This document shows positions 2,362-43,059 of a stretch of 64,000 nucleotides of DNA, piece by piece. This stretch comes from an uncultured Pelagibacteraceae bacterium. Lineage in GTDB: Bacteria > Pseudomonadota > Alphaproteobacteria > Pelagibacterales > Pelagibacteraceae. The DNA lies in assembly GCA_902577075.1 (NCBI GenBank), contig CACGXV010000006.1, positions 1 through 64,000 of the forward strand, in the 5' to 3' direction. The first letter of the stretch is position 1. Each line of letters opens with the position of its first letter. A program made the position numbers and the translations under genes. The notes under the pieces were generated by a model. It searched no databases and had not been told where the DNA came from. It saw only the letters and a list, made by a program, of their open reading frames with translations.

Positions 2362-2601
2362 ATGACTGCAAATATCAGAATATTAAAATGGACAAGCACA
2401 GTTTTGACGCTTTTAGGAATATTAACTTTTTATTTAGATTACTATCCTTATAGCATGATACCTCACAGTTTAGGTATAATCGGTTGGACTATTGTTGGTA
2501 CCATTACAAAGGATAAACCTTTATTAACAAATTTTTCACTACAAATCCCGATAATGATTGCAGGTATAATTAAGTATTCTTATACAACTGGGTTATTTTA
2601 A
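2362..2601 (+). CDS. Small hydrophobic membrane protein, unknown function
   Basis: 79 aa ORF with two hydrophobic segments and good Shine-Dalgarno (aaaaggagagaaaatg). Confidence 0.6.
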   Translation: MTANIRILKWTSTVLTLLGILTFYLDYYPYSMIPHSLGIIGWTIVGTITKDKPLLTNFSLQIPIMIAGIIKYSYTTGLF

Positions 2602-3737
2602 CTTACTTGGATTCCGTTTGACCAAACATTTTTTACAACTGGTAAATTTTGATAAATTTTAAACCTTATTAAATCTGCTCTCTTATTATTGTCAATGGAA
2701 CCCCTGTCATTTAAATTTGTAGCTATAGACGGAGCGTGACTAGCTGCTGCAAATGCTTTTGGAAGATTATCAATTTCTAAACCCCATTTGACAACAGATA
2801 TAATTAATGATGATGGAATATAATCTGAGCTTAAGATATCTAAACAATCATTTTCTAAGAGTTCTTTTGCAGATATATTGCCAGAGTGTGAACCTCCTCT
2901 AAGTAAATTAGGAGATCCCATCATAACTTTAATATTGTAATCTTTAGAAGTTTTGGCTGCTTCTAATGTTGTTGGAAATTCAGCCAATTTTACTCCATAT
3001 TTATTTGAATTATGAACATCATTTTCTGTGGTATCGTCGTGACTAGCCAAAATACAATCATATGATGATTTAAATTCTAAAATTTTATCTATGTGTTTCT
3101 TGCTATTTTTTTTTTGAAGATTTTTTAAGTGATCAAAATGAATTTCCATTTCATTTTCTGTCATACCGTGTTTAATTGAAAGATATTCTTTGTACTTATC
3201 TATAACTCTAAATTGCCTCTGACCTGGTGTATGATCCATTATACTAATCAGTTTTACATCGTGAGTTTCATTGTATTCGTCTAATTCATCAATCAAATTC
3301 TCCGAACAAGTTTCAGCTCTTAAATGTATTTTGTGATCAATCTTGAGAATATTATCTTTTTTGAAACTTGAAATTATATCCGAACAGTTTTTTGCATATT
3401 TTTTATATTTTCCTGTTTTTTCAATAGAACCAACTCTTAATGCATCAAAAACTGTAGTTATTCCAACAGATGCTAATTCTCTATCATGAGATAAAATTGC
3501 ATTTTCTACTGGAAATGAAACTTTAGGTCTTGGTGTCATGTGTCTTTCAAGATTGTCAGTATGTAATTCAACCAATCCTGGCGAAATATAATCTTTTTCG
3601 CAGTCTATAGAACTTTTGTTATTACTTAATCCACTACTTATATCGACAATCTTGTTATCTTTAATCCTGATATGACCATGAATGATTTCATCTTTTTTAA
3701 TTATCATGGCATTGTTTAAAATATATTCATGCATCAC
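2598..3737 (-). CDS. phnM: Alpha-D-ribose 1-methylphosphonate 5-triphosphate diphosphatase
   Basis: Amidohydrolase fold with PGLVELHTDNLERHMTPRP, SIMDHTPGQRQFRV, LASHDDTTENDV, SSDYIPSSL motifs characteristic of PhnM. Confidence 0.93.
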   Translation of the reverse strand: MMHEYILNNAMIIKKDEIIHGHIRIKDNKIVDISSGLSNNKSSIDCEKDYISPGLVELHTDNLERHMTPRPKVSFPVENAILSHDRELASVGITTVFDALRVGSIEKTGKYKKYAKNCSDIISSFKKDNILKIDHKIHLRAETCSENLIDELDEYNETHDVKLISIMDHTPGQRQFRVIDKYKEYLSIKHGMTENEMEIHFDHLKNLQKKNSKKHIDKILEFKSSYDCILASHDDTTENDVHNSNKYGVKLAEFPTTLEAAKTSKDYNIKVMMGSPNLLRGGSHSGNISAKELLENDCLDILSSDYIPSSLIISVVKWGLEIDNLPKAFAAASHAPSIATNLNDRGSIDNNKRADLIRFKIYQNLPVVKNVWSNGIQVS

Positions 3738-3809
3738 TTTTTAATACACATGAATTGTTACAAATATTTTAAATTAGAGAAAATTTATATAAGTATTATA
3801 AGTTGAATT

Positions 3810-9433: not shown

Positions 9434-9499
9434 AATACTATACAACTAGACAAGTACTAAAATTAAAAATAATTTCAATATATTATTTATTAAAATTTT

Positions 9500-10210
9500 A
9501 TGACAACAAAAGATTTGCTTTGGAAGGAAATATACAATTCAATCAAAAGAGAAATTGTTTTAAATAAGTACAAAATTAATAAAAAGTTAGATTCTGAGAA
9601 TGACTATGCAAAACAATTTAATGTCAATAGACACACTATAAGAAGAGCTTTTAAAGAACTTAAAGATGATAATTTAATATATTCAAAAAGAGGTCTTGGA
9701 GTATTTGTTAAATCATCAAAAATTAATTACTCAATTAGTAAAAACGTACGATTTACCGAGAATATACTTCAAGAAAACCAATCTGTAAGAATTGAAATAA
9801 AGAGTTTTGATATTGCTGAATGCAATCCTTTTGAAAAAAAAGAACTCAATTTAAAAAAAAATGATAAAGTTACACGCATAAATAGCATAGGTTTTGTCAA
9901 CAAGTCACCTTCTGTTATAACCTTCAGATCAATTCCTTATACAAAATTTCCAAAATTTATTAATCTTTTTGTTAAAAAACAATCAGTAACAAAAGCTTTT
10001 AATTTATTGAATATCAAATCAATTAAAAGATCAAAAACTCTAGTCAATGCAGAAATTGCAGACAAAATAAAATCAAATTTATTAAATATAAATGAGGGTG
10101 AAGCATTATTAAAAACTACATCTGTTAATGTCGATTTTAAAAACAATCCTATAGAGTTAAGTGAAAGTCATTTTATTGGATCTAAAATTCAATTTTTAAT
10201 AAAAAATTAG
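9500..10210 (+). CDS. phnF: GntR/HutC-family transcriptional regulator of phosphonate genes
   Basis: wHTH LDSENDYAKQFNVNRHTIRRAFKELKDDNLIYSKRGLGVFV plus UTRA-like domain; divergent from phnG. Confidence 0.88.
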   Translation: MTTKDLLWKEIYNSIKREIVLNKYKINKKLDSENDYAKQFNVNRHTIRRAFKELKDDNLIYSKRGLGVFVKSSKINYSISKNVRFTENILQENQSVRIEIKSFDIAECNPFEKKELNLKKNDKVTRINSIGFVNKSPSVITFRSIPYTKFPKFINLFVKKQSVTKAFNLLNIKSIKRSKTLVNAEIADKIKSNLLNINEGEALLKTTSVNVDFKNNPIELSESHFIGSKIQFLIKN

Positions 10211-10317
10211 ATTTTCTACCTTAGGTTTAAATTTCATATAACTTAAACAAAATTTAAAAGATTCATTAATAATATTTTAACATTTATTAAAGATTAGAGG
10301 ATTAATAAATTCCTCAA

Positions 10318-14536: not shown

Positions 14537-14965
14537 TCAATCTTTCCAGAATTTCCACCAAGGTTTTTCTTCCTTTGTTATTTCATTATTGTCAACAACA
14601 ACTTTAGTTATAGATGGATCCTCTCCATCTACTAATCCTGCTCTAGCAGTTGTTTTAGCGTCTTCTAATTTTAGTTTTGCCTCAAAAACTCTATTTTCAT
14701 TACACAATTTCATGCCCTCTTTCATTAATGCTTCTGCCTCAGATGCTTTTTCGGGACTAGATCTTGAAATATCATTTTTAACAGTGGCTCTTAACATAAG
14801 TACGCCAGGGTCTTCACAATTCCCTATTTCATTTTTAAATGTATCCTCAGTATTTTGTGAATAACTACTGCCGGCTTGTTGCTCTGTTATTTTAGCATGA
14901 TTTTCAGCTTGAGTAATAGAAATTGTGGATAAAGTTAATATAAATGAGATTAAGATTTTATTCAT
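14537..14965 (-). CDS. Secreted/periplasmic protein of unknown function
   Basis: Signal peptide MNKILISFILTLSTISITQA; no family recognised; C-terminus EKPWWKFWKD. Confidence 0.7.
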   Translation of the reverse strand: MNKILISFILTLSTISITQAENHAKITEQQAGSSYSQNTEDTFKNEIGNCEDPGVLMLRATVKNDISRSSPEKASEAEALMKEGMKLCNENRVFEAKLKLEDAKTTARAGLVDGEDPSITKVVVDNNEITKEEKPWWKFWKD

Positions 14966-14986: not shown

Positions 14987-15004
14987 TGTTAAAAAAATGT
15001 TAAA
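14987..15004 (-). promoter_or_regulatory. Candidate PHO (PhoB) box upstream of 14537..14965
   Basis: Plus strand TGTTAAA-AAAA-TGTTAAA, two perfect TRTTAMA heptamers at 11-bp spacing. Confidence 0.5.
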
Positions 15005-15019
15005 GAAATAAAAAAATTT

Positions 15020-16192
15020 GTGAAATATTTGTCTGCATTTTTAATAGGTATATCAGTTACCTTTTGTTACAGCAGTTGTATGTATCTGTTCTCAGCGTTG
15101 TTGCTAACTTGGGAAAATGAACTTAGTATCTCAAGGAATAATTTAACCTTTATTTATTCTCTAGGCTTAGTTGTGCATAGTTTACTTTTACCTTTTCTAG
15201 GTAAGATTGTAGATAGAAATCTAAGTTTTCCAATGATGTGGACCAGTCCTATACTGTTAGGACTAAGTGTAATTTATCTTTCATCAGTAGATACATATGG
15301 TGGATTTTTACTTGCTTGGATACTTGTCAGTGCAACCTCGGGTGGCTGTCTTTATACGATGCTTTTTAGTGTCATTACTATTAATTTAAAATCAAAGGCC
15401 AAAACATCTATTGCAATAATTACTTTATTTGCTGGATTTGCAAGCACATACACATTTCCTACTGCTACTTATTTAACAGAACAATATGACTGGAGGTTTA
15501 CTGTATTTATTTTTGGAATATTAAATATATTGATTAGTTCACCAGCTAATTATTTTGGTTTCAAAAATATAATTATAAAAGAATTTAAAAAAATTGAAAA
15601 GAAAACAGATCAAAATTCAAAGCTTAAAATAATACTTAAAGATTATAGATTTTGGTTATTTAGTTTTTCATTGTTTGTTATTGGATTTAATATTGGTGCT
15701 ATTACAACTCATGTAATTCCAATGTTGCAGGAAAAAGGGATGAGTCTATCCCAAGCTGTATTGACAGCATCTCTGTTTGGACCAGGACAAGTAATAGGTA
15801 GAATTTTAGTTATGATATATGGAGGTGATAAGTCAAATTTAAAATTATTTGTAATTTGTTTTTACTCGATGGTAGTTGGAATGATATTTTTATACTTTAT
15901 AAATATTAATCATTACTTAGCATTTTTATTTGTTTTATTTAATAGTTCAGCATATGGCAGTATGGCTATTTTAAAACCTTTGGTTCAAAATGATACTTTT
16001 GGCCAAAAAAACTTTGGCAATATTCATGGTATTTTAGCTTTGCAATATATGATTGGTAGTATTGCTGGTCCATGGATTGGTTCGTTGGTATGGAATGTAG
16101 GAGGATATGATTTGTTAATATTAGTATTTTTTGTTTTAGCAATATTTGGTAACTCGACAGCAATTTTTTTAAACAAAAAAAAGTTTATTTAA
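15020..16192 (+). CDS. MFS transporter
   Basis: 12-TM-like hydrophobic pattern, LPFLGKIVDR MFS loop motif; GTG start. Confidence 0.82.
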   Translation: MKYLSAFLIGISVTFCYSSCMYLFSALLLTWENELSISRNNLTFIYSLGLVVHSLLLPFLGKIVDRNLSFPMMWTSPILLGLSVIYLSSVDTYGGFLLAWILVSATSGGCLYTMLFSVITINLKSKAKTSIAIITLFAGFASTYTFPTATYLTEQYDWRFTVFIFGILNILISSPANYFGFKNIIIKEFKKIEKKTDQNSKLKIILKDYRFWLFSFSLFVIGFNIGAITTHVIPMLQEKGMSLSQAVLTASLFGPGQVIGRILVMIYGGDKSNLKLFVICFYSMVVGMIFLYFININHYLAFLFVLFNSSAYGSMAILKPLVQNDTFGQKNFGNIHGILALQYMIGSIAGPWIGSLVWNVGGYDLLILVFFVLAIFGNSTAIFLNKKKFI

Positions 16193-16736
16193 AGCTTCTC
16201 TCTACGTGTTTGTAAAAATAATTTATATTTGGAATTTCTAAATTTTCAATTTTAGCAAGATCATCATATTTTCTTAATCTAACTGCATCTTGCATAAAAG
16301 GTTGTTTAATAAATTCGTTTGCTTCCTCTTTGGAAAAACTTCCTCCTTGGACATCTAAACTTCGTTTTGAAGCAATAGATAAAGACTCATAATAACCTTT
16401 TTCACAATAAACCAAATATCTTTTAGCCGGAACATGTCCTTTAATTAATATTGTAACATCTTCTGGAAAAAATCTAGAAAGAAAAAGAGATCCTGAATTT
16501 TCATGCTTTTTATCTATTCCTTTTTTTATGGCTTCTTTGTCATTATTAATTAAGTGACCAATATCATGGAATAGGGCTGCAGTAATAAAAAAATGGTTTT
16601 CATTATTTTTTTTTGCCAATAATGCGCATTGAATTGCATGTTCTAGTTGTGAAACTTTTTCATTTCCATATTGTTTGTCTGATCCAATTTCTTCTATAAT
16701 TTTAAATAAATTGGCAATATTTGACATATTATCCAT
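16185..16736 (-). CDS. phnZ: HD-domain oxygenase, PhnZ-like (phosphonate-degradation-associated HDIG protein)
   Basis: YGNEKVSQLEHAIQCA, LFHDIGH, HENSGSLFL, IKGHVPAKRYLV, SLDVQGGSFS; Tyr-x2-Glu and diiron ligands positioned as in PhnZ. Confidence 0.83.
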   Translation of the reverse strand: MDNMSNIANLFKIIEEIGSDKQYGNEKVSQLEHAIQCALLAKKNNENHFFITAALFHDIGHLINNDKEAIKKGIDKKHENSGSLFLSRFFPEDVTILIKGHVPAKRYLVYCEKGYYESLSIASKRSLDVQGGSFSKEEANEFIKQPFMQDAVRLRKYDDLAKIENLEIPNINYFYKHVERSFK

Positions 16737-16757: not shown

Positions 16758-16775
16758 TGTTTCAGTTTTATTACA
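16758..16775 (-). promoter_or_regulatory. Candidate PHO box upstream of phnZ-like gene
   Basis: Plus strand TGTTTCA-GTTT-TATTACA; one mismatch to TRTTAMA-N4-TRTTAMA. Confidence 0.4.
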
Positions 16776-20775: not shown

Positions 20776-21627
20776 TTATTTCTCTGTTTGAATTAATCCT
20801 TTTATGAACCATTTTTGCAAAAATACTACCACTAAAACTGGGGGGATCATTGATAAAATAATATAAGCAAATCTCTCTGCTGTTCTTGGTAAAGCAACTC
20901 CCTCATAACTTTCAGTAAATATAATTTTCATTCCCATTACTACAGTCCAATATTCCTCACTCGTAGTCATTATTAACGGCCATAAATATTGACTATATCC
21001 GTATACAAACATGAATATAAACATCGCTGCAATCATTGTTTTAGATAATGGAACTAAAAAATCTATAAAAAATCTCCAACTATTTGCACCATCTAATTTT
21101 GCTGATTCAAGTAATTCATCAGGTATAGTTTTATAAAACTGTCTAAAAAAAAAGGTAGCGGTGGCTGATGCAACCAATGGAAGAACAAGACCTGTGTATG
21201 AATTAGTTAAACCTAAATCTGATACAATCTTATAACTTGGAAAAATCCTAACCTCCAGAGGCACAAGTAAAGTAATAAAGATTAACCAAAAAATTGGTAC
21301 AGCTAATTTGAATCTAAAATAAACTAAAGCATAAGCTGACATTGCTGAGATAATTACTTTAAGGGTTGCAATTCCTAAAGCCATTATAAAGCTATTTATA
21401 AACATTTTTGCAGCAGTCACTTCCTCTGACCAACCACCCTTCTCATTTAAAACTTCGTTATAATTTCTTGTTAATTGATCGCCAAGACCAAATTTCATTC
21501 CCTCTTTTAAAATAGTTACAGTATCGTGGGTAGAGCTAGCAAATGATAACCAAATCGGAATTACCATTAATAAAACACCTAGTATAAGTACAATGTGTGC
21601 TAAAATTTGTGATAATTTAATTTTCAT
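20776..21627 (-). CDS. ugpE: sn-glycerol-3-phosphate ABC transporter permease, UgpE-type (copy 1)
   Basis: EAA-loop DELLESAKLDGANSWRFFIDFLVPLSKTM; operon with ugpC/A/B. Confidence 0.88.
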   Translation of the reverse strand: MKIKLSQILAHIVLILGVLLMVIPIWLSFASSTHDTVTILKEGMKFGLGDQLTRNYNEVLNEKGGWSEEVTAAKMFINSFIMALGIATLKVIISAMSAYALVYFRFKLAVPIFWLIFITLLVPLEVRIFPSYKIVSDLGLTNSYTGLVLPLVASATATFFFRQFYKTIPDELLESAKLDGANSWRFFIDFLVPLSKTMIAAMFIFMFVYGYSQYLWPLIMTTSEEYWTVVMGMKIIFTESYEGVALPRTAERFAYIILSMIPPVLVVVFLQKWFIKGLIQTEK

Positions 21628-22445
21628 TTGTCTTGAAAGATCCCTTTAATAAAATATTTTTGTAATACAATTATGATTAATACTGGTGGTATCATTGACA
21701 TGATGACGAATGCAAATTTGTTAACGATTGATCCAGACATCATCTTTAATCCCATGACAACAGTCCAATATTGTTCAGAAGAAGTTACTAATATCGGCCA
21801 TAAATATTGATTATAACCGAATACAAACATAAATATGAACATTGCAACAATCATTGTTTTTGACAATGGCACTAAAAAGTCAATAAAAAATCTCCAAGTA
21901 TTTGCGCCATCTAATTTTGCTGATTCAAGTAATTCATCAGGTATAGTTTTATAAAACTGCCTAAAAAATAAAGTAGCTATAGCAGAAGCTGAAATTGGAA
22001 TAATTAGTCCCCAATATGAGTTTACTAAGTTAAGTGTAGACATAACAGAATAGGTAGGAAAAATTCTTAACTCCAGAGGGACTAGTATAGTAATAAAAAT
22101 TATCCAAAATAACAATGTTGCATATTTCACTCTGAAATAAACTAAGACATATGCAGTCATAAGAGATGAAATAACTGATACAAACGCAACTCCAGTTGCC
22201 ATTAAAAAACTATTTAAAAACATCTTTAATGCAGTAATTTCTTTAAAAAAACCACCCTCATATAATAAAACTTTCGTATAATTCTCTAAAAACTTATCTC
22301 CTAAAAAAAATTGAAGACCTTGGGTATTAATAATCGAAGCTGTATGAGTTGAGCTTGCAAAAATTAACCACACAGGAATTATCATAATGAAAATGCCTAT
22401 CAAAAGAATTAAATGAGAAAAGTTTGATGAAAAATATCTAATCAT
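21624..22445 (-). CDS. ugpE: sn-glycerol-3-phosphate ABC transporter permease, UgpE-type (copy 2)
   Basis: EAA-loop DELLESAKLDGANTWRFFIDFLVPLSKTM; close paralog of adjacent ORF. Confidence 0.88.
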   Translation of the reverse strand: MIRYFSSNFSHLILLIGIFIMIIPVWLIFASSTHTASIINTQGLQFFLGDKFLENYTKVLLYEGGFFKEITALKMFLNSFLMATGVAFVSVISSLMTAYVLVYFRVKYATLLFWIIFITILVPLELRIFPTYSVMSTLNLVNSYWGLIIPISASAIATLFFRQFYKTIPDELLESAKLDGANTWRFFIDFLVPLSKTMIVAMFIFMFVFGYNQYLWPILVTSSEQYWTVVMGLKMMSGSIVNKFAFVIMSMIPPVLIIIVLQKYFIKGIFQDK

Positions 22446-23373: not shown

Positions 23374-24681
23374 TTAAAGAGTCTTAGCAAATTGTTTTAA
23401 CAATTTAGCTGCACCCTTATCCATGTTCTTTAATCCTTTTTCGATTGATATTTTGCCATTTAACATTGGCTCAACATTTTCGTAAATTACTTCACGAATT
23501 TGAGGCCAGTTACCAGCTCTATATCCACCAGGAATAGTTGAACCTTCTAAGCTTAATTGTTCACCAACAGCTTTGTGATATGGAGAAGCTCTATAAAAGT
23601 TTATAGTTTCAGCTAATTCTATACCACCTTTAGTTACAGCAGAATAACCTGTCATGTTGTGATAGTATAAATCCATTTCAGGAGAACCCATAAATTCTAT
23701 GAATTTAGCAAGTCCTTTATACTCTTCTTCTGTATGACCATTTAAGATCCAGTTTGCTGCGCCACCAATAAATGTTGGATACTCTTTGCCACCAGTTACT
23801 GAGTCCCAATAAGGAATATGATTAACTGTAAAATTTGGAACAACACCTTTCATTCCACCAAATGATGCAGCAGATCCAAACCAAAAAGCAGCCTCACCTG
23901 CTATAAATGGTGCTTGATTATCTCCCCAAGCTCTTCCTTTATAGCCGTAGAGACCTTTTTCGTACCATTCTTTTACTTTTTTCCAATGATAAACAAATGC
24001 ATCTGTTTCAGCAAATAAAGTTTTTGTCGGAACAGCATCGTAACCATTGTTTCCATCTGTCATAAGGAGATTATGTCTTGAAAAGAAATTTTCTGTCCAG
24101 ATCCAAGGAGAGTGACTTTGAACTAAAGGAATATATCCAGCAGCTTTAATTTTTGGAGCCATAGCCTCAAATTCTTCATAAGTTTTTGGAACTGATTCTA
24201 TTCCTACTTCTTTCAATATGTCCATATTTGCATACATTAAGCAAGTTGAACTATTAAAAGGAACACCTATCATTTTTCCATCAGAGTCAGCATAGAAGTT
24301 TTTAATTCCAGGAATATAATTATCTGCATCTACTTTAATTCCATATTTCTCAGCCATATCTTCAAAACCAATAACAACGCCATTTTTAACTTGGGCTACC
24401 ATAATTGCAGCACCAGCATCGTAAACCTGTGAATAATGTGGTTGGTCTCCCGCTCTAAATGCAGCTATAGTTGCCGCCATGTTATCTTCATAACTTCCTT
24501 TACCTGTAGGAATGACGGTGTATTCATCTTGTGAAGCATTAAATCTATTTGCAATTTCAATAATTACATCACCAAGAAATCCACTATTTCCATACCACCA
24601 ATGAATTTCTGTCTTTGAATAACTGTGTGATGTAAAAGAGAAAGTAAATAGAATTGTTAAAACACTCAATATTTTTTTCAT
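23374..24681 (-). CDS. ugpB: sn-glycerol-3-phosphate ABC transporter substrate-binding protein
   Basis: Signal peptide, EIHWWYGNSGFLGDVI, NSSTCLMYANMDILKEVG, NWPQIREVIYENVEPMLNG. Confidence 0.92.
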   Translation of the reverse strand: MKKILSVLTILFTFSFTSHSYSKTEIHWWYGNSGFLGDVIIEIANRFNASQDEYTVIPTGKGSYEDNMAATIAAFRAGDQPHYSQVYDAGAAIMVAQVKNGVVIGFEDMAEKYGIKVDADNYIPGIKNFYADSDGKMIGVPFNSSTCLMYANMDILKEVGIESVPKTYEEFEAMAPKIKAAGYIPLVQSHSPWIWTENFFSRHNLLMTDGNNGYDAVPTKTLFAETDAFVYHWKKVKEWYEKGLYGYKGRAWGDNQAPFIAGEAAFWFGSAASFGGMKGVVPNFTVNHIPYWDSVTGGKEYPTFIGGAANWILNGHTEEEYKGLAKFIEFMGSPEMDLYYHNMTGYSAVTKGGIELAETINFYRASPYHKAVGEQLSLEGSTIPGGYRAGNWPQIREVIYENVEPMLNGKISIEKGLKNMDKGAAKLLKQFAKTL

Positions 24682-24726: not shown

Positions 24727-24755
24727 TATTAAAGTATCGTTAAATTTTGATTACT
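24727..24755 (-). promoter_or_regulatory. Degenerate candidate PHO box upstream of ugpB
   Basis: Plus strand TATTAAA-GTAT-CGTTAAA-TTTT-GATTACT, three heptamers at 11-bp spacing; one perfect, two degenerate. Confidence 0.35.
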
Positions 24756-26009: not shown

Positions 26010-26804
26010 TTATTTAATTCTAGTTTGAATTATTTTGATAATTTTAGGTAAATCTTTAATTGTATCTATTACATAGTGAGCGCCTACTTTCTTAAATTTA
26101 TTCTTGATCTTTTTTCTAAATTTAGTTTTATCTTTAAAAGAAAGTCTATTAAATTCGACTTCTGTTTTACCAAATTCATTACCTGAAAATATAACACCCA
26201 CTACCCACATCCCAGCATTTACTCCCTCTAACAATCCAGGAATAGTGTCATCAACTTTTATACAATTTGATCCCTTGGTAATATTTAATTCAGAAAAAAT
26301 TTTATATATTATTTCAGCTGAGGGTCTTCCAATTTTTGTGTATGAAGAACTATATGACACATCAGGTATAAATCTTTGTTTTTTTAGTTCTGGCAATATA
26401 ACATTTAGAATTTCTTCTGAATATCCGGTATTGATTCCTATTTTTATTTTTTTGTTTTTTATAAAATCTAAAGTTTTTTTACTTCCTGATATAAATTTTG
26501 AATGTTTCTTAATTATTTTTTTTAATTCTGGATTAAAAAGTTTAAACAATTTATCAATATCTTTATCTGTTGGTTTTGATTTAAATTTTTTTTTCCACTG
26601 CGAATTAATTTTTCTTGTTGTTAGCAATGCTTTTATATGGGCTCGTTTTTCAATACCCATTGGTCCTATGGCTTGTTCTCGTGTAATTTTAATTCCAAAC
26701 CTATCAAATAATTCTATAAGAACTTGAGATGGCGCAAGGCTTCCAAAATCTATTAATGTGCCAGCTAAATCAAATACAATTCCTTCTATATTGGAATTTT
26801 TCAT
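26010..26804 (-). CDS. phnX: Phosphonoacetaldehyde hydrolase-like HAD protein
   Basis: VFDLAGTLIDFGSLAP, APMGIEKRAHIKALL (Schiff-base Lys position), KVDDTIPGLLEGVNAGMWVVGVIFSGNEFG. Confidence 0.85.
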   Translation of the reverse strand: MKNSNIEGIVFDLAGTLIDFGSLAPSQVLIELFDRFGIKITREQAIGPMGIEKRAHIKALLTTRKINSQWKKKFKSKPTDKDIDKLFKLFNPELKKIIKKHSKFISGSKKTLDFIKNKKIKIGINTGYSEEILNVILPELKKQRFIPDVSYSSSYTKIGRPSAEIIYKIFSELNITKGSNCIKVDDTIPGLLEGVNAGMWVVGVIFSGNEFGKTEVEFNRLSFKDKTKFRKKIKNKFKKVGAHYVIDTIKDLPKIIKIIQTRIK

Positions 26805-26920: not shown

Positions 26921-26949
26921 TGTTACAAAAATATTACAGATTTATTACA
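26921..26949 (-). promoter_or_regulatory. Candidate PHO (PhoB) box, triple repeat, in phnX/TPR-gene intergenic region
   Basis: Plus strand TGTTACA-AAAA-TATTACA-GATT-TATTACA: three perfect TRTTAMA heptamers at 11-bp spacing. Confidence 0.7.
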
Positions 26950-27502: not shown

Positions 27503-27550
27503 TTACTTTATCTGTAAAATATCTTTAATATTATTAAAATATAATAACTT

Positions 27551-28051
27551 ATGAATTATTTGAAAAATATTAAGCTTACAAATAATATAACTTTAATTAA
27601 TAAGCCATTCAAAAAAAAAGAATATTATCATTTCTTAAAAACCTCTGATTTATCTTTGGTAGTTGCGGAAATTAAGAAAAACGTTTTTGTTCTAGTTAGT
27701 CAAAAAAGAATTCCAGTTAATAAAATCAACTATGAATTTCCATCTGGTATGATTGATAAAGGAGAAAATTCTATAAGTGCTGCTTGTAGAGAATTTTATG
27801 AGGAAACAGGATATAAAATATTAGGAAGACCAAAAAAATTATTTACAATTAATTGTGAGCCAGGAAGGTTAACAACTAAAATATACTGCTATTATTCAAA
27901 TAGAATAATTAAAAAAAAAGGACCTGAGAAAGCTATTAAAATTCATTTTCTGTCTAAAGAAGAAATAAACAAATTAATTTTAAATGAAAAATTTTGTAAT
28001 GCCTCTCATGTGGCTTCATTTTTTAAAGTTATAAAGGTGCCTACAAAGTAA
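27551..28051 (+). CDS. NUDIX hydrolase
   Basis: Nudix box GMIDKGENSISAACREFYEETGYKI. Confidence 0.88.
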   Translation: MNYLKNIKLTNNITLINKPFKKKEYYHFLKTSDLSLVVAEIKKNVFVLVSQKRIPVNKINYEFPSGMIDKGENSISAACREFYEETGYKILGRPKKLFTINCEPGRLTTKIYCYYSNRIIKKKGPEKAIKIHFLSKEEINKLILNEKFCNASHVASFFKVIKVPTK

Positions 28052-31816: not shown

Positions 31817-32332
31817 ATGCGCGAATTATATGTCATGAGACATGCAAAATCTAGTTGGGAAGACCCAAATTTAAGTGATTTTGAAAGACCACTAAATAAA
31901 AGAGGCATCAAAAGTGCAAAAATTATAAGTGAATTTTTTGTTAAAAAAAAATACTCCTTTGACTACGTGCTTTTATCTTCATCAAAAAGAACAAAAAAAA
32001 CTCTAAATTTAATACTGAATAAAATAAATAAACCAAAAAAAATTAAAAGTTCCTCAAAACTCTATTTGGTTAATGAAAATGAAATAATAGCTAATATAAA
32101 AAATATCCATAAAAAGTTTAAGAAAGTATTGATAATAAATCATGAGCCTGCTCTTAAAAATTTAGTTATAAAATTAACTAAAAATAAAGATAATAGTAAT
32201 TTTAAACTATTAAATTATAAATTCCCAACTTGTGCATTTGCTAAAATAGTTTTCGATACGAATGATTGGATAAATATTGAAGAGAAAGGAATTATTTCTG
32301 AATTTGTAAGGCCTAAAGATTTAGTTATCTAA
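31817..32332 (+). CDS. SixA-type histidine phosphatase
   Basis: MRELYVMRHAKSSWEDPNLSDFERPLNKRG, LIINHEPALKNL. Confidence 0.87.
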   Translation: MRELYVMRHAKSSWEDPNLSDFERPLNKRGIKSAKIISEFFVKKKYSFDYVLLSSSKRTKKTLNLILNKINKPKKIKSSSKLYLVNENEIIANIKNIHKKFKKVLIINHEPALKNLVIKLTKNKDNSNFKLLNYKFPTCAFAKIVFDTNDWINIEEKGIISEFVRPKDLVI

Positions 32333-33004
32333 CGAATAGCCTGCAGATCTCACTGTGCGAATTAAATTTTCTAATCCACTAACATTTAAAACTTTTCTCA
32401 ATCTTCTTATGTGAACATCAACCGTTCTACTTTCTACATAAATATTTTCACCCCAAACATTATTTAGTAATTGTTCTCTTGAATAAACTCTTTTTGGATT
32501 TTTAATAAAAAAATCTAATAATTTAAATTCTGTGGGTCCCAAAATTATTTCCTTATCATTTCTATAAACTCTTTTTGCTAATCTATCAATTTTAAGGTCT
32601 TTAAATTCCACAACATCAGTTGATGACAAAGGTTTAGCCCTTCTTAACAAAGATTTAATTCTTGCATTTAATTCTTTTTGGCTAAATGGTTTAGTGACGT
32701 AATCATCGGCTCCAGTTTCAAATGCTTTTAATTTATCTTCCTCCTCTCCTTTTGCAGTAAGCATAATAATTGGAATGTCATTATATTTTTTATCCCTTTT
32801 TAACTGTTTACATATTTCAACACCTGATAAATCTGGCAACATCCAATCTAATAAGATTAAGTCTGGCATTTTTTGTTTTATTGATTTTAAAGAGTCCTCT
32901 CCATTTTCACTTGAAGAAACCTTATGACCTTCTTTTTCTAAATTATATTTTAATAAGGTTGAAATTGGCGCCTCATCTTCTGCAATAAATATGTGTGCAC
33001 TCAT
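32321..33004 (-). CDS. phoB: Phosphate regulon response regulator
   Basis: OmpR/PhoB-family receiver (LILLDWMLPDLSG) and wHTH (VYSREQLLNNVWGENIYVESRTVDVHIRRLRKVL); next to phoU. Confidence 0.94.
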   Translation of the reverse strand: MSAHIFIAEDEAPISTLLKYNLEKEGHKVSSSENGEDSLKSIKQKMPDLILLDWMLPDLSGVEICKQLKRDKKYNDIPIIMLTAKGEEEDKLKAFETGADDYVTKPFSQKELNARIKSLLRRAKPLSSTDVVEFKDLKIDRLAKRVYRNDKEIILGPTEFKLLDFFIKNPKRVYSREQLLNNVWGENIYVESRTVDVHIRRLRKVLNVSGLENLIRTVRSAGYSLDN

Positions 33005-37131: not shown

Positions 37132-37164
37132 AAAAAAAAGGGCCCAATTAATAGGGCCCCTTTT
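37132..37164 (-). terminator. Stem-loop between pstS and pstC (attenuator/terminator)
   Basis: Minus strand AAAAGGGGCCC-TATTAATT-GGGCCC followed by TTTTTTTT. Confidence 0.85.
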
Positions 37165-37186: not shown

Positions 37187-38221
37187 TTACTCCATTGACA
37201 TTGCAGTAAGAGCTTTCGAATTATCTCTAACTGTTCTGTAAGTTGCTTTATCAAGTGGAACAAGTCCTATTTCCGCTAAGTAACCTCTTTTACCAATAGC
37301 TTTAGTTGTAGTGAATTCTTTTACAAATTCATGTAATCCTGGAATTACACCAACATGAGCTTTTTTTACGTAAAAGAATAATGGTCTAGCAACAGCATAA
37401 CTATAGTCTTGGATAGATTCTAGTGATGGTTGACCACCTTCTATACTTGCAGCTTGCAATTTATCTCTTGCGGCTAAGAAGTAACTAAATCCAAAGAAAC
37501 CAAACATTTCTTTGTCTTCCGATAATTTTTGAATAATTAAACTATCATTCTCTCCAACTTCAATAGCAGCACCATCTTCTCTGTAAAGTTTTTGTGGTTT
37601 TTTATATTTTTTATTTCCAGCTTCGAAACCTGCTTTGTATAATGCTTTAGCCTCTTTAGGCATACCTTTTTTCATTACTAACGAATTCCAAGCATCTCTT
37701 GTTCCGGATGTTCCTGGGGGAATCATAACTGAAATCTTTTGTTTTGGTAAACTTGGATCTATTTGATCCCATGTTTTGTATATGTTGTCTACTAATTTAC
37801 CATCAACAACTGAGTGTTTTGCTAAAGCTTTCCAAAGTTGTTCTTTAGTGAAGTTTACTGGTTCAGCGTCAACACTGTATGCTAAAGTAATACCATCGTT
37901 ACCGATAATAACTTCAACAATTTCATTAACACCATTTTTTTTGCAAAGAGCTTTTTCTTTATCTTTCATTGCTCTTGATGCATTTGTTATATCAGGGTGA
38001 GCTTCTCCTACACCTGCACAAAATAATTTTGCACCACCACCTGTACCAGTTGACTCGATTACTGGTGTTTTAAATCCAGTTTGCCCGAATCTTTCAGCAA
38101 CTATTGTTGCGTAAGGGAATACAGTAGATGATCCAACTATTTTGATTTGATCTCTTGCTTGAGCAATAGTGGCAACAGAAATGGCAACTATTGAAGCAAG
38201 GACTATAGTTAGTTTTTTCAT
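37187..38221 (-). CDS. pstS: Phosphate ABC transporter substrate-binding protein
   Basis: Signal peptide, KIVGSSTVFPYATIVAERFG, ESTGTGGGAKLFCAGVG, PPGTSGTRDAWNSLV. Confidence 0.96.
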   Translation of the reverse strand: MKKLTIVLASIVAISVATIAQARDQIKIVGSSTVFPYATIVAERFGQTGFKTPVIESTGTGGGAKLFCAGVGEAHPDITNASRAMKDKEKALCKKNGVNEIVEVIIGNDGITLAYSVDAEPVNFTKEQLWKALAKHSVVDGKLVDNIYKTWDQIDPSLPKQKISVMIPPGTSGTRDAWNSLVMKKGMPKEAKALYKAGFEAGNKKYKKPQKLYREDGAAIEVGENDSLIIQKLSEDKEMFGFFGFSYFLAARDKLQAASIEGGQPSLESIQDYSYAVARPLFFYVKKAHVGVIPGLHEFVKEFTTTKAIGKRGYLAEIGLVPLDKATYRTVRDNSKALTAMSME

Positions 38222-38289
38222 TTTTAATATCCTTTCGTGAATTAAATTTAATTAACGACTCGCTTAATAAATTTTATTGAGGACTCTAG

Positions 38290-38318
38290 TATTACAAATT
38301 TGTTACAGTTTTGTTAAA
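38290..38318 (-). promoter_or_regulatory. Candidate PHO (PhoB) box upstream of pstS
   Basis: Plus strand TATTACA-AATT-TGTTACA-GTTT-TGTTAAA: three perfect TRTTAMA heptamers at 11-bp spacing, about 70-97 nt upstream of the pstS start. Confidence 0.8.
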
Positions 38319-38329
38319 TAGGTAACTTT

Positions 38330-38962
38330 TTAGTTGTATTTTTTAGAGATGATTAAGGTATCATTATCTGCAGCTAAATCTCCTCGACAACGAATTGGGC
38401 TGACATTTTCACTTAGTGCTAAGCTCTTTGTTGGTCTTAAAGTAACTTCTAGTTGTATCATTGATATAAGGTCTTTTACTTGATTTTGATCATATTTCCA
38501 TGAAGGCCAACTTGTGGGGGTAGAAAAAGTAGTAATTATATAACTTGAGGCCCTATTAAAATTATAATTACTCTCATTTTGTTTTCTTAACAAATGATCT
38601 CTTACAGAAAAGAAAATATTTTTACATCTATGCATGTCAGACATATAATTTTCTTTTTTTAAGTTTTTGTTCATTGGGATTGATACAATCAAATCAATTG
38701 TATCTCTCCAGAATGAAGTTAAAACCTCAGTATAGATATGATCAACATTTACTTTGTCAGATGGAAAATGTTTATTGACAGTGCTTTTCGTATTTTCTAA
38801 GTCATTTTTCATTCTAAAAATACCAATATCAAATACAGTAAGTTGTTGGTTTCTTAAAAGTGTTGTAATGTCTTTTTTATTAGAAACTTCAGAGTAAGAA
38901 TTTGATATAAAATTAAAGAATAAGTAAGAAAAAATAAAAAAATTTATTATTATTTTTTTCAT
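38330..38962 (-). CDS. Secreted protein of unknown function between phoR and pstS
   Basis: 210 aa ORF with signal peptide (MKKIIINFFIFSYLFFNFISNSYS); no family recognised. Confidence 0.7.
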   Translation of the reverse strand: MKKIIINFFIFSYLFFNFISNSYSEVSNKKDITTLLRNQQLTVFDIGIFRMKNDLENTKSTVNKHFPSDKVNVDHIYTEVLTSFWRDTIDLIVSIPMNKNLKKENYMSDMHRCKNIFFSVRDHLLRKQNESNYNFNRASSYIITTFSTPTSWPSWKYDQNQVKDLISMIQLEVTLRPTKSLALSENVSPIRCRGDLAADNDTLIISKKYN

Positions 38963-39036: not shown

Positions 39037-40191
39037 TTATAATTCACTGGGTAAATGAATGTTAATTTCGGTTCCTTTACCATTAAGATTTTTTATTTCG
39101 TAATCACCTCTATGTTGAGAAATTATATGTTTGACAATTGCAAGACCTAAACCTGTTCCACCAACTTTCCTGCTCTCTTCAACATCTACTCTATAAAATC
39201 TTTCAGTTACCCTGTTAATTTGATCCTCGGGAATTCCAATACCTTGATCAGATACAGATATTTTAATTCCTTTTGTTATGAGTTTCCCTTTGCTTGGAGA
39301 AGCTAATATATTTATAGTTGATTTTTCTTTTGAGTATTTAATAGCATTGTCTAATAAATTAGAAAAAACTGTTATTAATTTATCTTCATCACCAATAACA
39401 TCACTTACATTACCTAAATTAATTTCAAGATTAATATTTTTTTCTTTTAAGCTAGTAAAATGAACATCTTTTACTTTTGTCAATACATTCTTCAAATTAA
39501 CTGGTTTGTCAGGTCTTATATGCTCCTGGAGTTCAATTCTGCTTAATATTAATAGATCACTTATTAAATTTTCCATTCTTTTGCTTTGTGAAGAGATTAT
39601 TTTAAGAAATTTTATCTTTGCTATTTCGTCATCTTTAGCAGGACCCTCTATTGTCTCTATAGCGCCTTTAATTGAAACAAGAGGAGTTTTTAATTCATGG
39701 CTAACATTAGCAACAAAGTCAGTTCTAAATTTTTGTGCTTTTGAAATTTCAGTAAGATCTTTTAAAAATAAAACAACAGAGTCTTTTTCTGTAAAAATTA
39801 CAGTTGGTCCAGGAATCACATAAATTCTGTAATACTGATATGAAGGCAAATTTATTTCTAAATCTAAATTACTGGTTTTTTTTGAAGACTTAACTTCTCT
39901 GATTTTTTCATCTAGATTAGGATTTCTTAAAATTGTGCCGAGATGTGTATTTAAAATATTTTTACCAAATCTTTTTTCGGCACTTGGATTAGCATATTTT
40001 ATAATATTTAATTTATCTAATGCTATAAATTGATCCTCTAATTCATCTAATATAAATGTTTTGCTATCATCCTTTTCATACTTTGAAATAATAATTTTAT
40101 CATCAGTATTTTTTTTATTTCTGTTTGAATAAATTATTATTAGTAGAAATATAATTACACAGATTAATAGTATTTCAAAGAGGCCAATCAT
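39037..40191 (-). CDS. phoR: Phosphate regulon sensor histidine kinase
   Basis: PAS region, H-box FVANVSHELKTPLVSIKGAIETI, GTGLGLAIVKHI; upstream of the pst operon. Confidence 0.93.
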   Translation of the reverse strand: MIGLFEILLICVIIFLLIIIYSNRNKKNTDDKIIISKYEKDDSKTFILDELEDQFIALDKLNIIKYANPSAEKRFGKNILNTHLGTILRNPNLDEKIREVKSSKKTSNLDLEINLPSYQYYRIYVIPGPTVIFTEKDSVVLFLKDLTEISKAQKFRTDFVANVSHELKTPLVSIKGAIETIEGPAKDDEIAKIKFLKIISSQSKRMENLISDLLILSRIELQEHIRPDKPVNLKNVLTKVKDVHFTSLKEKNINLEINLGNVSDVIGDEDKLITVFSNLLDNAIKYSKEKSTINILASPSKGKLITKGIKISVSDQGIGIPEDQINRVTERFYRVDVEESRKVGGTGLGLAIVKHIISQHRGDYEIKNLNGKGTEINIHLPSEL

Positions 40192-42146: not shown

Positions 42147-42164
42147 TGTTAAAGAAATATTAAA
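42147..42164 (-). promoter_or_regulatory. Candidate PHO box in plcP/DAG-kinase intergenic region
   Basis: Plus strand TGTTAAA-GAAA-TATTAAA, two perfect TRTTAMA heptamers at 11-bp spacing. Confidence 0.5.
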
Positions 42165-42171
42165 ATTTATT

Positions 42172-43059
42172 ATGAAATATTGCATTATTTACAACAAAAA
42201 CGCTTCCTCTGGCAGAAAATCTAAATTTATAAAAAAAATTTCTGATGAACTTTCTAAGTATAACGATGTTTCTTTTTTTGAAACTGAGAGCGTGGATAAA
42301 GCAGAGGCAGTATTTAAAAATATTTCTAAGTTAAATATAGATAGACTTGTAGTTGCTGGAGGCGATGGTTCAGTATCATTTGCAATAAACAAACTTATTA
42401 AAAATAATTTTGTTCCAAAAAAAGATTTTGCTATTGGTTATATACCAGCTGGAACTGCTAATTTACTTCAAGCTGAACTAAATATGAGTAAAAAAATAAG
42501 TAAAATTGTTCAAATTTTACAATCAAACAATTTAAAACAAACTAATTTAGTAAAAATCAATAATGATTATTTTATTTTAATGGCAGGTATAGGTTGGGAT
42601 GCAACGATAGTCCATTCAATTAATAGTTCTCTAAAAAAACTGTTAGGTAAAATTATTTTTGGATATAAAGGATTGCAAAAATTTTTGTTAATGGAAAATC
42701 AAAAATTAAAAGTTAACATAGATGGTCAAAATCATATAGCTGACTGGGTGTTATGTTCTAATACCAATTATTATGCGGGTCACTACAAAATTAATAAAAC
42801 AAATATATTTGATAACAAAATTATTACTTATGTATTCAAAGACCTTACAAGAATAAAAATACTTTATTATATTTATTTGATTATTTTTTTTGGAGATTTA
42901 TCGAAGTCTACGAGTGTTATAACATCTTATTCCAGTGAGCTAAAAATTGATGGACAAGGAAAAAAAATTCCAATTCAAATTGATGGTGATAAATATCAAT
43001 ATTGTGATAACGTAGAATTAAGGAAATCAGGAAAATATTTTAACATATTAACAGCCTAA
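42172..43059 (+). CDS. Diacylglycerol kinase catalytic-domain protein (YegS/LCB5-like)
   Basis: IIYNKNASSGRKSKFIKKI, VVAGGDGSVSFAINKL, IPAGTANLLQAEL; start set at ATG 42172. Confidence 0.87.
   Translation: MKYCIIYNKNASSGRKSKFIKKISDELSKYNDVSFFETESVDKAEAVFKNISKLNIDRLVVAGGDGSVSFAINKLIKNNFVPKKDFAIGYIPAGTANLLQAELNMSKKISKIVQILQSNNLKQTNLVKINNDYFILMAGIGWDATIVHSINSSLKKLLGKIIFGYKGLQKFLLMENQKLKVNIDGQNHIADWVLCSNTNYYAGHYKINKTNIFDNKIITYVFKDLTRIKILYYIYLIIFFGDLSKSTSVITSYSSELKIDGQGKKIPIQIDGDKYQYCDNVELRKSGKYFNILTA

Follow-up and report, generated by a model that had tools for sequence, protein, structure and literature searches.

Predicted A+T-rich Pho boxes of the phosphate regulon in a SAR11 (Pelagibacteraceae) genome

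Short direct repeats with an 11-bp period lie upstream of pstS and several other phosphorus genes in a SAR11 genome, and these repeats are, with high confidence, the PhoB operators (Pho boxes) of the SAR11 phosphate regulon. An earlier note on this DNA had read them as PhoB direct repeats, and the reading is upheld by five mutually independent lines of test: chance expectation, conservation and position, promoter geometry, the base-contact residues of the encoded PhoB, and a matrix derived from Escherichia coli. The window, meaning the whole stretch of DNA that was analysed, covers 64 kb at 28.7% G+C and comes from a SAR11 (Pelagibacteraceae) genome whose 1.36-Mb assembly in 13 contigs is approximately 90% complete. 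It is a phosphorus island that holds C-P lyase genes, phnCDEE, a gene for a PhnZ-like HD oxygenase, the ugp transporter, phnX, ppx, ppk, phoB, phoU, pstBACS, phoR and the lipid-remodelling pair plcP-agt; genes with no listed family match were named by sequence and order. On the minus strand are pstS (37187–38221; NCBIfam TIGR02136, below the cut-off, with orthologs in the pst/pho gene order), phoB, the proposed regulator of the boxes (32321–33004; TIGR02154 equivalog, above the cut-off), and a gene for a phoR-like sensor kinase (39037–40191; TIGR02966, below the cut-off). Between phoR and pstS (38330–38962) lies a gene for a 210-aa protein that was assigned to no family and has a 43% identical counterpart at the same place in another genus (L146), and the ugp operon carries two ugpE-type permease genes side by side (20776–22445).

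Upstream of pstS the plus strand reads TATTACA-AATT-TGTTACA-GTTT-TGTTAAA (38290–38318), letter for letter as first described. The earlier note had listed six such sites, and all six read TKTAAYA toward minus-strand genes. At pstS the units on the minus strand are thus TTTAACA (unit 1, 38312–38318), conserved with few exceptions among the 37 distinct sequences found upstream of pstS in 80 relatives, TGTAACA (unit 2, 38301–38307), ranked third of all window positions by the E. coli matrix, and TGTAATA (third repeat, 38290–38296). Units 1 and 2 are the likely PhoB dimer site, and a predicted -10 element on the same strand, TACTAG (38286–38291), begins 10 bp after the TGTAAC of unit 2. The other perfect sites were also where they had been reported, and all are on the minus strand. 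The triple box upstream of phnX (26010–26804) lies at 26921–26949, is ranked first or second by the matrix and is conserved in relatives. The plcP-agt box is a pair at 42147–42164; it falls inside an ORF only because the called start, a TTG, precedes the likely ATG at 42175, it has one mismatch (CTTAACA) in most near-identical relatives, and pairs are kept in two unrelated upstream contexts among relatives. The pair at 14987–15004 precedes the gene for a 142-aa secreted protein next to phnCDEE (14537–14965) and is followed by N10-TAATAG, 6 nt and the ATG; the protein itself has no Pfam or NCBIfam match. The two sites described as degraded have one mismatch each, again on the minus strand: that of the PhnZ-like HD oxygenase gene (16185–16736) at 16758–16775, with matrix rank 4 or 5 and the sequence N10-TAAAAG, 6 nt, ATG, and the weaker box of ugpB (23374–24681) at 24727–24744, with N10-TATTCA and only partial conservation.

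Four candidate boxes can be added to this list. The phnG box of the C-P lyase operon, TGTCATA-AAAT-TTTAATA (9488–9505, minus strand), ranks 6 or 11 with the E. coli matrix, depending on the background. Two weaker candidates, each from this single genome, precede the gene at the phnM position (2598–3737; box at 3756–3773, minus strand, N10-TATTAA) and a gene for a NUDIX-type hydrolase (27551–28051; box at 27513–27530, plus strand, TGTAAAATATCTTTAATA, N10-TATAAT). Upstream of phnC, on the plus strand of this one genome, are five degenerate 7-mers with 11-bp phasing (10232–10282), a candidate array that resembles a long weak Pho array.

The repeats are conserved in relatives. A little-changed form of the pstS triple is seen in 80 loci, which between them have 37 distinct upstream sequences, and the triple pattern occurs in 114 of 247 genomes of the family, where the control gave one match in all; the 30 loci extracted from this search in other genera lie without exception at pstS, pstC or phoR. 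A TGTAAYA-N4-TGTAAYA pair was found within 300 bp of pstS in 43 of the 47 same-genus genomes that have pstS. A search for this pair in 151 genomes, many of them close relatives so that the counts are not independent events, gave 136 matches and only 1 for the reversed control. Near pstS there are 51 sites, 8 of them from the sister family and the rest from the same genus, and every one is oriented as pstS is; 35 lie upstream of the gene and 16 between pstS and pstC. The sister family also has a perfect box before phnC. The phnX triple is conserved where PhnX is 87–99% identical, and in 11 loci where phnX is 84% identical and placed elsewhere only degenerate phased units were found. The pair at the 142-aa gene is conserved at 88% protein identity; the ugpB box is variable and poorly conserved. 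In the sister family the gene after phnCDE encodes a homolog of the 142-aa protein, recognised by eye (L261:5304–5741 and L264:5175–5612), and this position suggests a role with phosphonate uptake. Also in the sister family, a perfect triple (L262:1350–1378) precedes a small lipoprotein-like protein of no assigned function beside sixA and ppk. Recurrent TGTAACAAAGCTGTAAYA matches in relatives were not counted as boxes, since they lie inside the gmpp coding sequence (perfect TGTAAYA pairs at L120:11836, L121:2309 and L126:8157); they are probably coding coincidences that could mislead a simple motif scan.

The position of the -10 region relative to the repeats is also conserved. A TA lies exactly 10 bp after unit 2 in 13 of 13 distinct pstC promoters and in 34 of 36 distinct pstS promoters. 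In eight pstC promoters with only two units, the TA at offset 10 cannot come from the repeat; all eight have it, and any other offset has TA in at most three of the eight. The same 10-bp spacing between second unit and -10 is found in E. coli phoA. In the window, the sites of the PhnZ-like, 142-aa, ugpB, phnM and NUDIX genes fit N10-TA, and the plcP and phnX boxes show no such simple geometry. Among gene starts ranked by the E. coli matrix, 5 of the 10 best have N10-TA as compared with 2 of 32 others (P = 0.005), a descriptive figure in that the groups were set after the ranking had been seen.

The conserved spacing bears on the third repeat at pstS. Where the earlier picture had three PhoB sites of equal standing, conservation of unit 2-N10-TA makes it probable that the third repeat instead overlaps the -10 region. 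It is possible, though we consider it rather unlikely, that the repeats bind PhoB and that the third unit is a full PhoB site with the -10 lying 10 bp beyond it. In its favour, this unit matches the motif just as fully as the other two and is nearly invariant in the window's clade, but no TA-type hexamer is conserved at N10 beyond it, the TA after unit 2 is nearly universal at pstS and pstC, and in the pstC promoters of L140 and L145 such a -10 would coincide with the start codon. In pstC promoters of other genera the third unit stands just before the ATG, and no further -10 can fit. An overlap of the third repeat with the -10 region thus remains our reading. The ATG follows the predicted -10 by only about 6 to 9 nt at the 142-aa gene, at the PhnZ-like gene and at pstC in most relatives, which suggests that the mRNAs of these genes are leaderless.

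In E. coli PhoB, base-specific contacts are made by T194, V197, R201 and R219 (PMC3264566). All four residues are kept in the PhoB of the window in an alignment to 1GXP. The PhoB matrix that we used was built from 59 E. coli ChIP-seq sites (PMC10294691) and is independent of SAR11. When no background was applied, the six top positions in the window were those of phnX, pstS, pstS, the PhnZ-like gene, phnX and phnG, and six scores at this level compare with a mean of 0.16 in shuffles. With a background of window composition, a site in a tRNA region (49202) moves to the top, followed at ranks 2 to 6 by the sites of phnX, pstS and the PhnZ-like gene. When 46 gene starts were scored in this way, the ten with the highest scores belonged to phnX, pstS, PhnZ-like, phnG, phnM, NUDIX, ugpB, plcP, phnC and the 142-aa gene, all of them phosphorus genes or genes within the phosphorus cluster.

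The earlier note had called the motif AT-shifted from CTGTCAT, which is correct, but the shift is mild. An A at unit position 4 is the rule in the window and a minority in E. coli, where 17 of the 59 ChIP-seq sites have A at position 4 and 18 of 59 have it at position 15. E. coli PhoB binds TGTAAYA sites in vivo (PMC10294691), bound sites of like spelling being TGTAATAGTTCTGTAACG (yibT) and TGTAATAAAAGCGTAAAC (phoE), and the E. coli ugpB promoter region includes TGTAACA. Among the relatives, one same-genus pstS promoter (L126) has TGTCATA in place of the TGTAACA of its sisters, and one in the sister family (L133) reads TGTCATA-AAAT-TGTAATA. A G+C-rich relative in the class (L136) has CTGTCATATAAACGTCGTATCACTGTAAAC at its pstS promoter, an alphaproteobacterial CTGTCAT-type box that corresponds in position to the one in the window and is spelled G+C-richer. 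We therefore place the spelling in the window at the A+T-rich extreme of the canonical PhoB motif, which ranges from TGTCAYA to TGTAAYA, with no new specificity. The spelling appears to have drifted while its reading has not, because the base-contact residues are the same as in E. coli and a matrix from that species is enough to find the sites; a changed specificity of PhoB was dropped as an explanation on these grounds.

Another regulator of the OmpR/PhoB family could give repeats of the same period. CtrA, for example, recognises TTAA-N7-TTAAC, also with an 11-bp period. The pairs at 14987 and 42147, which have TTTAA in both units, fit this motif, and the genome encodes four winged-helix proteins of the family. 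Besides PhoB, one of these is nearest to a marine sortase-type regulator and lies beside a kinase, one is nearest to OmpR and one is without a match; none of the three has the NCBIfam CtrA model among its matches at E <= 1e-40. No CtrA-model match at threshold was thus found among the four family members in this approximately 90% complete assembly, and CtrA as the main explanation was rejected because no CtrA was recognised among them. Nor does the CtrA motif explain the G at position 2 in most units (TGTAAYA), and the sites cluster at phosphorus genes. We regard sites of a CtrA-like or other family regulator as highly improbable, and PhoB operators remain the preferred reading.

There is least to be said for chance. 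The window contains six perfect TKTAAYA-N4-TKTAAYA pairs, overlapping ones included, all of them intergenic, and same-strand copies show an offset peak at 11 (6 pairs) and at 22. Dinucleotide shuffles of the intergenic DNA gave a mean of 0.043 perfect pairs with a maximum of 1 in 1000 shuffles, and whole-window shuffles gave 0.2; the rough estimate in the earlier note, that a perfect pair should occur well under once per 64 kb, holds good, and a similar density of pairs in composition-matched intergenic DNA, which would have spoken against its reading, was not seen in any of the 1000 shuffles. Genome-wide, 9 perfect pairs compare with 4 matches to the reversed control. Three of the 9 are found elsewhere than in the window, one within an ORF, one upstream of rpmH and one across an ORF start, and none of these is at a phosphate gene. 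Pairs with one mismatch are at chance level across the genome (105 versus 118 in the control) and were rejected as evidence; degraded sites are therefore not acceptable by pattern alone and need other support, and for this reason the phnM, NUDIX and ugpB sites remain candidates. A generic promoter scan was uninformative (47 found, 51 expected). That the boxes are A+T-rich repeats which only seem regular in intergenic DNA of 79% A+T has next to no probability: the chance-level count of relaxed pairs and the coding coincidences among matches in relatives, for example inside gmpp or infB, speak for it, but no shuffle reaches the observed count, the repeats are conserved while the DNA around them diverges, and the control is outnumbered 136 to 1 in the 151 genomes. 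Chance is already refuted for the pstS, phnX and plcP sites; the weakest sites may still be chance matches.

Between pstS and pstC lies a strong intrinsic terminator (37135–37164, minus strand), and relatives have an equivalent hairpin. Another SAR11 clade has an additional Pho box directly behind this hairpin, before pstC (L120–L127 and L138–L145); in the window's clade the terminator is present and no second Pho box was found behind pstS. We give an even chance to the proposal that in part of SAR11 the pst operon is split into two PhoB promoters, the second box driving a nearly leaderless pstCAB-phoU-phoB. If so, this arrangement, together with an ATG 6 to 9 nt after the -10, would point to PhoB promoters that are compact and leaderless and adjusted so that PstS is made in large excess over PstCAB.

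Units of the TTAACA type are also known from Bacillus subtilis PhoP sites. Mycobacterium tuberculosis PhoP has 7-bp repeats with a 4-bp spacer (PMC4832192), as here; both PhoP proteins belong to the same regulator family, but they are other regulators in other promoter contexts. A Pho box consists of two 7-nt direct repeats with a 4-nt spacer, and its consensus differs among species (PMC4415409). Two such repeats with the 4-nt spacer and an 11-bp period are found here, as are agreement with the PhoB matrix, derived independently from E. coli ChIP-seq, an encoded PhoB with the base-reading residues (TIGR02154, above the cut-off), and conserved positions upstream of phosphorus genes in gene orientation; a -10 approximately 10 bp past the second unit is found at the pstS and pstC promoters, not at those of plcP and phnX. 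E. coli Pho boxes (PMC10294691; 1GXP) share the 7-bp direct repeats, the 4-bp spacer and the orientation toward the gene, and E. coli PhoB has the same base-contact residues and the same kinds of target (pstS, ugpB, phn). For plcP clusters of marine bacteria, an earlier study with SAR11 in its set had already predicted Pho boxes; its main text states neither a consensus nor a spacing nor a -10 geometry for SAR11 (PMC4796936). Our literature search, largely of openly accessible papers, found this plcP paper only and no published SAR11 PhoB-site consensus. The boxes described here are almost certainly a well-supported further case of the known Pho-box type in an A+T-rich spelling.

The sites, their excess, conservation, orientation and spacing and their match to the E. 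coli matrix are observed directly; that PhoB binds and activates there, and precisely where the -10 elements and starts lie, is predicted from them. Under phosphate starvation PhoR would phosphorylate PhoB, and a PhoB dimer would bind head to tail on two 7-bp units 11 bp apart (TKTAAYA-N4-TGTAAYA, toward the gene). Bound PhoB would replace the -35 element and recruit RNA polymerase to a -10 starting 10 bp past the second unit, turning on pstS (with pstCAB-phoU-phoB), phnX, plcP-agt, the PhnZ-like oxygenase gene, ugpB, the C-P lyase operon and the gene for the 142-aa secreted protein. In HTCC7211, a genome other than that of the window, one such gene, LMWPc_ArsC, is reported to be 2.3-fold up in P-starved cells (PMC6426599). 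The boxes may mark the 142-aa secreted protein and the NUDIX enzyme as likely phosphate-starvation genes, and would be useful for listing the SAR11 genes expected to respond to phosphate starvation. SAR11 bacteria rank with the most numerous cells of the ocean and are limited by phosphate over large regions of it, and the consensus together with its geometry would allow the phosphate regulon to be read from thousands of uncultured SAR11 genomes.
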